Origin: Syntrophorhabdaceae bacterium | GTDB taxonomy: Bacteria > Desulfobacterota > Syntrophorhabdia > Syntrophorhabdales > Syntrophorhabdaceae | Assembly: GCA_036504895.1 (NCBI GenBank) | Contig: DASXUJ010000095.1 | Coordinates: forward strand, 1-61,865 | Reading direction: 5' to 3' | DNA length: 61,865 bases | Shown here: one piece after another, positions 1 through 2,268 of the stretch | How positions within the stretch are numbered: position 1 is the stretch's first letter | Layout of the letters: each line of letters starts with the position of its first letter | The notes under the pieces: model-generated | The model's database searches: none | Told to the model about the DNA's origin: nothing | The model's input: the letters and a program-made list of their open reading frames with translations, nothing else | Translations under genes and position numbers: made by a program

Positions 1-843
1 CACATCGGAATAGATCTTTTCGTAATCATATTCTATATGAAGGGGATTTTCGAGGCATACGTAGGAGTGAATAAGATTATCGAGGACCATCGCCTTAAGC
101 GGCGTGGTCCGGTCATGGCTTATGGTGTCGATGAGCTTGATGGTGAAATAGTCGCTCTCCGTGTAAAGCTTTACGCCCTGCCGGAGGGGCACCTTGTAGA
201 GGAAATGATGGACGCCCCACATGCCGAAAAAAGCGATGATGACAAAAAGGGCCACGCTCTTCTTCGTTTTAAAGAGGGAGCCGGAGAAGAGGGCAGCCAA
301 AAGCAGGATTATGCCCATGAGGAATATAATCTTTTGGGTTCCCATCCATGAGATGAGAAAAAAGCCTGTAATAAAGGTACCGATGATAGCCCCGAGCGTG
401 GAGAGGGCATATATCTTTCCAATTACATTTCCTGCATTATCGAGATTTTTGAGAGTGAGCCTCACCACTACGGGGCTGATTGTGCCGAGCACGCAGCCGG
501 GAATGAAAAAGATGATGGTGGTGACAAGAAAAATTCGCAGCATGAGAGAGAGGGGGAAACGGTAAGAAGCGACTGCGAAAGTAAGAGGAATTATGGCAAG
601 GGTCAAAATACCCGAAAGAAGTAGAAGCCATCCCAGGGTCTTCCTTTCGGGAAACCGGTCAACGAGTTTCCCGCCTATATAGGCGCCTATGCTGATGCCC
701 GCCAGAATCACGCCGATAATACTCGTCCACGTATAGATCGAAACACCTACGAAGGGGGCCAAGACGCGTCCGGCCACCATCTCTATGACGAGGGTGCAGA
801 AACTTGCCGTAAAGGTGATGATGTAGGCTTCCAAAAGGCTCAT
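1..843 (-). CDS. Fused MFS / spermidine-synthase-like membrane protein (3' part missing)
   Basis: The reading frame is open from ATG at 843 down to base 1 and runs off the window, so only the first 281 residues are seen. It starts MSLLEAYIITFTASFCTLVIEM and has repeated hydrophobic segments with the family-like stretch GRVLAPFVGVSIYTWTS, then GYxxGGKL-type and GxxxGTxSP-type turns typical of the membrane half of fused MFS/spermidine synthase proteins. After about residue 210 the chain turns soluble (YTESDYFTIKL), which would be the beginning of the synthase-like domain. In such proteins the soluble domain resembles aminopropyltransferases, but the true substrate is often unknown. A GGAGG lies about 12 bases upstream of the ATG. 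The gene diverges from the two-component operon to its right. The family call is fairly secure; the catalytic part cannot be judged here. Confidence 0.72.
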   Translation of the reverse strand, partial: MSLLEAYIITFTASFCTLVIEMVAGRVLAPFVGVSIYTWTSIIGVILAGISIGAYIGGKLVDRFPERKTLGWLLLLSGILTLAIIPLTFAVASYRFPLSLMLRIFLVTTIIFFIPGCVLGTISPVVVRLTLKNLDNAGNVIGKIYALSTLGAIIGTFITGFFLISWMGTQKIIFLMGIILLLAALFSGSLFKTKKSVALFVIIAFFGMWGVHHFLYKVPLRQGVKLYTESDYFTIKLIDTISHDRTTPLKAMVLDNLIHSYVCLENPLHIEYDYEKIYSDV

Positions 844-982
844 AGACTCACAGTACCTCCAATTGTAGAATAGCGCGTGGGGGATATCTTCCCGGAACCG
901 GGGCCTTACTCCCGCACATAGAATTTGATCGGCAACCTTTTTATACTTACAGGTTTCATGGGGGTTTGTCAAAGCATTTAAT

Positions 983-1070
983 GGGGCTCACGTCGCCCCC
1001 TCCGATAGCAAAGGCTATCGGAGCCTCCCCCTCTCGCCCGCTGTGCGGGCTAGGCTGACGCGGGAGGACC
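983..1070. repeat. Hairpin repeat, copy 1 (short form)
   Basis: It begins with the block GGGGCTCACGTCGCCCC that recurs at 1152 and 1373. It carries a perfect 10-bp hairpin (CTCCGATAGC at 1000-1009, loop AAAG, GCTATCGGAG at 1014-1023) and a second 6-bp hairpin (GCCCGC 1036-1041, GCGGGC 1045-1050). A degenerate partial block (GGGGCTTGCGTCGCA) lies near 1130. The element is non-coding as far as I can see. Confidence 0.8.
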
Positions 1071-1151
1071 GGTTTCTTTTCCCTTTTTTCGCTTCAACGC
1101 ATACACGCTTTACGGGCGCATTTTATTGGGGCTTGCGTCGCACAACCCATA

Positions 1152-1358
1152 GGGGCTCACGTCGCCCCCTCCACGGGCAGCAGCCCGCGGAGCCTCCCCC
1201 TCTCGCTCGCCGTGCGAGCTACGACACGGGGGACCACTCATAGAGGAATTGCCCTTCATAAGCGCCGCCTGTTCCTTCTAATAGACGAGCAGGCTTCTTT
1301 TCGCCTCTGCAGGTTTTTACTGCCTTGGCTTCGACTAACGACTGGAGACTAGAGACTG
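1152..1358. repeat. Hairpin repeat, copy 2 (long form)
   Basis: It opens with the same 17-base block as copy 1. The first hairpin has different bases but keeps the pairing (CTCCACGGGC / GCCCGCGGAG, one mismatch), and the second is GCTCGC / GCGAGC (1205-1210, 1214-1219). It continues with a unit that includes GCGCCGCCTGTTCCTTCTAA and TTTTTACTGCCTTGGCTTCG and ends with AGAGACTG. That tail is repeated nearly base for base in copy 3. Confidence 0.85.
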
Positions 1359-1372
1359 CCCTTTCTATTCTA

Positions 1373-1539
1373 GGGGCTCACGTCGCCCCCTCTCGCTCGC
1401 GTGCGAGCTACACCACGAGGGACCACTCTATGGGGAATGCCCTTCATAAGCGCCGCCTGTTCCTTCTAATAGACGAGCAGGCTTCTTTTCGCCTCTGCAG
1501 GTTTTTACTGCCTTGGCTTCGACTAGAGACTAGAGACTG
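1373..1539. repeat. Hairpin repeat, copy 3 (direct repeat of copy 2, first hairpin deleted)
   Basis: This is a direct repeat of 1152-1358, but the first hairpin segment is missing, so the opening block runs straight into TCTCGCTCGC. The second hairpin GCTCGC / GCGAGC (1395-1400, 1403-1408) and the downstream unit up to AGAGACTG are retained. With copies 1 and 2 it fills most of the 744-base gap between the flanking genes, where I see no credible protein. Confidence 0.85.
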
Positions 1540-1581
1540 TTCCTCGAGTTGTTATTGCGGGATTTTTTGTTTTAGTTAATA

Positions 1582-1587
1582 TATAAT
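1582..1587 (+). promoter_or_regulatory. -10 hexamer TATAAT abutting the response-regulator start
   Basis: A perfect TATAAT sits just ahead of ATGGCGATGAAA. With normal spacing transcription would begin at about 1594, the second ATG, giving a leaderless message. No convincing -35 hexamer or Shine-Dalgarno sequence is visible, so this is a weak prediction. Confidence 0.35.
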
Positions 1588-1593
1588 ATGGCG

Positions 1594-2268
1594 ATGAAAG
1601 TGCTTGTTATCGAGGATGAGGTCAAGGTCGCGAGTTTTGTGAGCAGGGGCCTTGAGGAAGAAGGGTATGATGTCGATGTGGCCTATGACGGGCTTAAGGG
1701 ACTCGAGGCCCTTAAGGGGGCTTCCTATGATATCGTGCTCCTCGATCTGATGATACCCGAAATCGACGGGCTCGAGGTGCTTCGGCGGATGCGCTCGTGG
1801 GGGTCCATTACTCCCGTTCTCATCATCACGGCGAAAACCGCCAAAGAAGACGTGGTAAAGGGGCTTGATACGGGAAGTGACGATTATCTTACCAAACCCT
1901 TTTCCTTCGATGAGCTCCTCGCGAGAATAAGGGCCCTCCTTAGACGGAGCAAACAGGCGGAATCACGGCTGCTCGAATATGGGCATGTGATCCTGGATCC
2001 CTATAACCGCAGGTTAAGTGTCGATTCCAAAGAGATCGAGCTCACGGAGAAAGAGTTTCTCATTATGGAGTTTATGCTCAAGAATGTGGAAAGGCCGCTC
2101 ACGAGGAACGAGATTGCCGAATATGTATGGCAAAGCAAGGGGGAATCGACGAATATCGTCGACGTATATGTCAACTTTCTCAGAAAAAAGCTCGATTCCG
2201 TCTCCGCAAGAAGGTATATCCATACGGTAAGGGGCACCGGCTACATTCTTAGAGAAGGTGATGAATAA
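1594..2268 (+). CDS. OmpR/PhoB-family response regulator
   Basis: Two-domain DNA-binding response regulator of 224 residues from the ATG at 1594; an in-frame ATG two codons upstream is possible. The receiver domain occupies about residues 1-115, with the acidic pair E7/D8, phospho-acceptor D51 (in VLLDLMIPEIDG), T79 and K101 (LTKPF). A winged-helix output domain follows at about 125-222, ending RGTGYIL, the usual C-terminal signature. It overlaps the downstream histidine kinase by 11 bases, and degP follows, so the three probably form an envelope-stress operon comparable to CpxR-CpxA-DegP. The exact stimulus is unknown. A TATAAT hexamer abuts the start and no ribosome binding site is seen, suggesting leaderless expression. 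Confidence 0.9.
   Translation: MKVLVIEDEVKVASFVSRGLEEEGYDVDVAYDGLKGLEALKGASYDIVLLDLMIPEIDGLEVLRRMRSWGSITPVLIITAKTAKEDVVKGLDTGSDDYLTKPFSFDELLARIRALLRRSKQAESRLLEYGHVILDPYNRRLSVDSKEIELTEKEFLIMEFMLKNVERPLTRNEIAEYVWQSKGESTNIVDVYVNFLRKKLDSVSARRYIHTVRGTGYILREGDE

Follow-up and report, generated by a model that had tools for sequence, protein, structure and literature searches.

A dispersed three-hairpin repeat of Syntrophorhabdales and other bacterial genomes, probably a REP-like mobile element read on a single strand

A spacer in the window (the whole 61,865-nucleotide stretch of Syntrophorhabdaceae contig DASXUJ010000095.1 that was analysed) lies between a leftward gene (start 843) and a rightward response-regulator gene (start 1588) and contains three repeat copies in the same orientation. 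They raise the question of what kind of element keeps its hairpins paired while the paired bases change. An earlier note had described a shared opening block, a first hairpin that differs in its bases between two copies but retains 10 or 9 pairs, a matched change in the second hairpin and an exact loss of the first hairpin in the third copy. All four descriptions hold on closer inspection.

The opening block A, GGGGCTCACGTCGCCCC, is identical in the three copies and always stands on the plus strand (at 983, 1152 and 1373); with up to 3 mismatches it matches the window three times, against a mean of 0.32 in shuffled sequence, where one of 100 shuffles reached three. Read on the plus strand, copy 1 (975-1052, with ends taken from the drop in conservation and from the empty site discussed below) consists of a near-invariant hairpin A of the form GGGGC-loop-GCCCC (983-999), a 10-bp hairpin B of variable sequence (1000-1023) and a 6-bp hairpin D (1036-1050). 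In all three copies the strand that carries the wobble pairs, here called F, is the minus strand. Copy 2 (1144-1221) has A at 1152-1168, B at 1169-1192 and D at 1205-1219, and its minus-strand foot is GTAG. Stem B is CTCCGATAGC/GCTATCGGAG with 10 pairs in copy 1 and CTCCACGGGC/GCCCGCGGAG with 9 pairs and one A.C in copy 2, and stem D changes from GCCCGC/GCGGGC in copy 1 to GCTCGC/GCGAGC in the other, a C/G to T/A change matched on both arms. In copy 3 (1365-1410) A (1373-1389) is fused to D (1395-1408), B having been removed by a 31-bp deletion bounded by two CCCCCTC direct repeats, which can be read directly on either side of B in copy 2 (1165-1171 and 1196-1202). As the deletion spans from CCCCCTC to CCCCCTC, the exactness of the loss is the expected outcome of slippage. 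Copies 1 and 2 fold better than shuffled sequence (z -4.2 and -3.6), while copy 3 does not (z -0.9). Copies 2 and 3 form a tandem duplication, with 106-nt tails (1245-1350 and 1433-1538) that are 95% identical. This tail repeat, with GCCGCCTGTTCCTTCTAATAG...GGCGGGCTTTTT, is terminator-like on the plus strand and common to several other copies of the genome (for example L003 and L009). On the 5' side of copy 2 lies a half module, GGGGCTTGCGTCGCACA (1127-1143, plus strand), an A-like block with a different 3' end that is frequent upstream of copies in the same genome.

The window copies belong to a family dispersed through their 4.35-Mb genome (138 contigs). Block A occurs there at 97 places with up to two mismatches (44 exact), against three for a reversed-pattern control, and a covariance model (R1) built from 23 copies gave 93 matches at E<=0.1, of which 42 are on the plus strand; they are spread over 65 separate sites and 42 contigs. 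The possibility, raised beforehand, that the genome holds no further copies is thereby removed. In the unit of about 78 bases, hairpin A hardly varies, hairpin B in the middle stays paired although its sequence is almost unconstrained, and hairpin D is the third. The modules occur in the orders A-B-D, A-B-C-D and A-C-B-D, where C is an additional palindrome, and B is recurrently deleted. Adjacent copies less than 500 bp apart are arranged head-to-tail in 28 of 28 cases in this genome and in 13 of 15 in genome G043, and tandem duplication of the flank (at least 18 of 24 matches) was seen at 33 of 245 copies versus 4 of 245 control positions. At locus L063 of genome G002 (1501-1767) two tandem copies carry the B stem-loop exactly inverted between them (loop AGA versus TCT). 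In several Syntrophorhabdales copies (L052, L183, L187, L193, L198, L213 and L420) a CACCCGCAAGCGGGTACCCGG-type palindrome replaces or interrupts arms of A, B or D.

The pairing was assessed on the 23 copies, aligned by MAFFT without structural information. Among 482 cells, 95.6% are paired, compared with 86.2% for shuffled and 37-45% for slid versions, and 46 cells are changed on both sides, where shuffles give 13.2 (none of 500 reached 46) and slid controls 1-6. The number of pairs showing a double change is a weaker signal (7 versus 5.1; 21 of 500 shuffles), and further pair types show no excess (16 versus 16.8; 415 of 500). Stem A is invariant in this alignment and consequently silent on covariation. 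The suggestion that pairing is under selection is thus supported by the doubly changed cells, and arms that differ without pairing, named beforehand as the contrary outcome, are not what the further copies display.

The imperfect pairs indicate which strand matters. On the plus strand the non-Watson-Crick cells of B comprise 80 A.C and 14 G.T over three genome sets, in counts of distinct stems rather than of independent events: 23:6 in the own genome (48 distinct stems), 36:6 in relatives (57, one non-hairpin set aside) and 21:2 in distant genomes (49, ten set aside). These stems were extracted by regular expression, independently of the model's pairing; model-based pairing gives 32:9 and 42:10. 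One stem position contributes 40 of the 80 A.C cells, and without it the ratio is 40:12. An A.C on the plus strand is a G.U or G.T on the minus strand, and F is therefore the strand whose fold is maintained. Equal numbers of A.C and G.T would be expected of a cruciform or of neutral hairpin-templated repair, and the asymmetry accordingly favours a single-strand structure, of RNA or single-stranded DNA; a mutational strand bias is an unlikely cause of an asymmetry this large. Of the earlier proposal of RNA or a cruciform, the selected pairing stands, while the cruciform is at odds with strand-asymmetric wobble pairs in all three genome sets.

The ends of the element are well defined. Conservation rises abruptly at CWATTAnn, the 8 nt that precede GGGG, and stops at GCTR past D, as seen from 66 A ends of the own genome, 71 of relatives, 69 of G043 and 86 of distant genomes; the consensus begins CWATTAnnGGGGCTYRCGTCGCCCCCTC... 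On F the family ends are 5'-YAGC ... GCCCCnnTAATWG-3', and each copy reads 5'-YAGC, hairpin D, a purine linker, hairpin B, hairpin A, TAATWG-3'. At locus L130 of genome G018 the insert, TAGC...CCCCAGTGATTGA, is flanked by GAGTTAAA and AGGGAGGG; genome G009, 98% identical around this locus, has no insert and reads GAGTTAAAGGGAGGG, i.e. GAGTTAAA|GGGAGGG. Two copies, one damaged and one full, make up the insert, and the ambiguity of its junction is at most one A. The comparison shows a recent insertion without target duplication, its ends fixed by the G009 empty site and in agreement with the conservation drop in all four sets. This is the one fully clean empty site found. No clean empty site came from a joined-flank search at five further loci; at one site from this search, hairpin B is interrupted by another palindrome. 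The pair L139 and L327 looks like an insertion and was not used, because its flank has diverged too far. Another intergenic repeat family, R2, which contains GAGGCGAGGAAGCTTGGTC...CCGAACGCGAGC, is likewise dispersed and present in dozens of copies per genome, with loci in G018, G009, G010 and G019 (e.g., L129, L136, L329-L335), and the three-hairpin element sometimes lies inside it, always at the same place. Apparent empty sites within R2 were not counted, as they could be deletions.

Copy positions turn over fast. Taking six G018 copies, one of them without an ortholog row, and eleven other genomes, an intact core was present in only one of 27 orthologous upstream regions, of which one other has a D-like remnant and some may be non-syntenic. 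Mean identity between copies is 0.79-0.83 within five genomes versus 0.73-0.81 between genomes, the exception being G025 with 0.88 (5 copies compared). With identity within genomes close to that between them, a common constraint on the copies seems likelier than fresh bursts.

The distribution is wide and patchy. A survey of 40 genomes, the own among them, gave matches at E<=1e-3 in 24. All 4 genomes of family f2 and 20 of the 25 in the own family are positive, and none of the 3 in f3 or of the 8 from the rest of the phylum; genomes free of the element include G003, G013, G015, G026, G028 and G030. At most 109 candidates were scored per genome, and the copy counts are lower bounds. An even draw over the phylum gave matches at E<=1e-6 in 3 of 99 genomes, namely the own, its family member G005 and, from another family, G077. 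G077 has exactly one copy (96 bits; L436, 9826-9915), which is full, lies between genes named by eye as acyl-CoA dehydrogenase and electron-transfer flavoprotein, with F in the sense of both, and is likely a recent horizontal arrival. The GTDB collection has at least 120 stretches with the 20-base pattern GGGGCTYRCGTCGCCCCCTC, and the record titles among the matches listed include Nitrospirae, Troglogloeales, Syntrophorhabdales/Syntrophorhabdus, "Syntrophus", Deltaproteobacteria, Bdellovibrionales, an Acidobacteria MAG and others. Seventeen of these genomes, picked because they contain this pattern, hold from 3 to at least 128 copies (G044 128, G043 126, G040 71, G041 50), with 20 in a Bdellovibrionales MAG and only 3 in the 7.6 Mb of the Acidobacteria MAG, where they may represent contamination. 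The element was not found in IMG/VR viral contigs, plasmids or phages, Rfam gave no match at E<=1 in window positions 800-1700, and six 15-mers of block A had no match in an open-access library of papers, in which topic searches likewise gave no paper on this family.

Copies lie mostly between genes. By the calls of a home-made hexamer gene finder, 2 of 93 are within predicted genes in the own genome, while the other two sets have 8 of 88 and 10 of 93. With contig-edge and duplicate rows dropped (35, 19 and 22 rows) and each spacer counted once per orientation, two same-way flanking genes run with F rather than against it in ratios of 23:9, 31:8 and 37:9. Replication was considered in G043 only, because GC skew follows the genes in the own genome; in G043 the skew is of the replication type and common to both gene strands. 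There F is on lagging-strand polarity in 68 of 97 copies and on leading-strand polarity in 29 (p=9e-5; 11 of 108 rows dropped as duplicates or edges), and among the 43 copies between same-way genes an effect of replication (p=0.013) stands beside an effect of gene direction (p=0.013). The bias may result from insertion or from retention, the more stable hairpin being preferentially lost when it is on the lagging-strand template. Within predicted genes of G043, F is antisense in 19 of 24 copies, perhaps because F brings stop codons.

We consider it rather probable that these repeats are a short (about 78 bp), non-autonomous, mobile palindromic family, REP-like in behaviour, of which the single F strand is recognised by a factor acting in trans. 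This reading is supported by the 93 dispersed copies, the paired B, the wobble asymmetry, the empty site, the single occupied region among 27, the agreeing ends, the constrained identity, the lone G077 copy, the flank tandem duplication and the replication bias in G043. The recognised strand would be nascent lagging-strand DNA or RNA, identified by its fold together with the A and end sequences. Copies that lose A or their pairing would stop moving and then vanish, a loss that would freeze the sequence while the sites change; tandem growth and module loss would arise by slippage at the hairpins, and a copy within an mRNA may also serve as an intercistronic hairpin. Against mobility stand the fact that the only clean empty site holds a composite and the lack of a mobiliser in the searched genomes.

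Those searches covered several enzyme classes, in draft genomes, so that absence of an enzyme is not proof. The own genome has seven Y1_Tnp matches (L031-L037), mostly long (about 314-348 aa where complete), and the element core was absent from the searched flanks of all 36 Y1_Tnp loci (7 own, 29 relatives); Y1_Tnp had no match in G005 (99% complete, 73 copies), G025 (60 copies) or G027. We therefore reject the link to a TnpA-REP (RAYT) transposase that the earlier note had proposed to look for. RVT_1 had no match in three element-rich genomes (the own genome G000, G018 and G002), so that the reverse transcriptase expected of a retro-mobile RNA element was not found there. IS110 at E<=0.001 had no match in G012 (29 copies), G017 (8) or G027 (13), and in the own genome is represented by two adjacent pieces only, one containing a stop. 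Among 750 neighbouring proteins no gene or transposase recurs beyond common housekeeping families. A MITE of a DDE transposon was likewise rejected, as the element ends CWATTA... and ...GCTR do not form an inverted repeat and the empty site, with at most 1 nt of ambiguity, has no target-site duplication. The trans-acting factor would thus be something other than a RAYT/IS200 or IS110 transposase or a reverse transcriptase encoded by these genomes.

An alternative explanation is a cis-acting RNA element selected site by site, whereby F-strand hairpins in intercistronic or 5' untranslated mRNA set stability, processing or translation and mobility is secondary. The co-direction of F with its flanking genes would follow from this, as would the G.U wobble on F, the position of the A end at a median of 23-38 nt before the start codon of the same-sense gene (distant genomes and relatives) and the closeness of the purine-rich linker to the ribosome-binding site. 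However, selection at individual sites is difficult to reconcile with only one occupied region in 27, the neighbours are varied housekeeping genes of no common pathway, 33 copies in the three sets lie between convergent genes and others precede a promoter-like sequence, as at an rpmH-like gene (-35 box identified by eye), and the orientation bias in G043 follows replication too; we regard this explanation as rather unlikely. Less likely still is that no selection acts and that the arms remain complementary through inversion, copying from one copy to another and hairpin-templated repair, as at any quasi-palindrome. G-C to C-G switches are indeed frequent and mismatched intermediates few, the tandem copies of L063 differ by inversion of the B loop, and B is deleted recurrently. 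Such processes nonetheless predict strand-symmetric leftover mismatches instead of 80:14, the loops stay A-rich on the plus strand, which implies that inversion is rare, and block A is near-invariant across phyla.

Membership of the true GTAG REP/BIME family, moved by RAYT transposases, is suggested by the extragenic position, the high copy number, the Y1_Tnp matches of the own genome and a GTAG before hairpin D on F in 30 of 89 own copies. This foot is found in only 2 of 73 copies of relatives and 0 of 64 of G043 and in none of the distant-genome feet listed, nnAG alone being general across sets; with head-to-tail neighbours, no Y1 locus carrying the element, and G005 and G025 rich in copies but devoid of Y1_Tnp, this origin is largely refuted and very improbable. 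We give almost no weight to an attC-like recombination site of an integron-type tyrosine recombinase: a single-strand hairpin with conserved ends, variable terminal structure and one functional strand is shared, but the attC boxes, of consensus RYYYAAC/GTTRRRY, are missing from the element consensus, and the copies are dispersed singly between genes rather than forming a cassette array.

If the element is indeed a mobile, REP-like repeat, a broader interpretation is possible, which we advance tentatively and hold to be doubtful as it stands: that it represents a new class of mobile hairpin DNA across phyla without a recognisable transposase, in which the single-strand fold and not the stem sequence is the signal, and orientation is set by the replication fork and transcription, for example if a host replication or repair factor joined F-strand DNA or RNA into gaps on the lagging strand. 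Repeats without a dedicated transposase, such as the CGTC REPs, are an open problem; the sharp ends, the empty site, the hundreds of copies in many genomes and the strand information make the question of what moves a REP without RAYT testable. The family also adds an unannotated, high-copy, structure-constrained element to Syntrophorhabdales and to groundwater genomes titled Nitrospirae.

Compared with known repeats, the element is closest to REP-like sequences. GTAG REPs, SMAG and REPINs are described in PMC3733652 as short extragenic palindromes of high copy number with complementary stem changes, G.T pairs and mosaic clusters, for which transcription and an RNA function were suggested. The element shares the extragenic palindrome, the stem changes, the mosaic clusters and the G.T pairs, and its wobble is in this respect REP-like behaviour (PMC3733652). 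It differs from them in its length of about 78 bp, its three hairpins, its same-orientation tandem neighbours in place of HH/TT dimers, the rarity of an unpaired GTAG foot outside the own genome, the lack of a RAYT gene and a core sequence common to several phyla. The earlier assignment to a REP/BIME-like small non-autonomous element consequently stands for the dispersed, extragenic, high-copy and paired character, and falls for GTAG/RAYT membership. With BIMEs and BOX-like repeats it has in common modules (A, B, C, D) that are present, absent or reordered in mosaics, but without alternating orientation. The hairpins, one active strand and replication-tied orientation recall IS200/IS605 ends and other HUH single-strand systems (PMC6006769), while no Y1 enzyme is linked to the element and the G043 bias places F on nascent lagging polarity. 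CGTC REPs (Di Nocera et al. 2013), in the description given in PMC3733652, have CGTC at the foot of an 8-9 bp stem starting AT, and a CCA tail. The element resembles them in having CGTC in block A, in its occurrence in several phyla and in the absence of a dedicated transposase among Y1, RT, IS110 or neighbouring genes, but its CGTC lies in the loop of hairpin A, and its consensus has neither that foot and AT stem nor the CCA tail, nor does it form HH dimers. It thus behaves like a REP, yet lacks the defining features that were tested for either of the tagged REP superfamilies, and is best described as a three-hairpin, transposase-less, multi-phylum, REP-like and probably mobile repeat.
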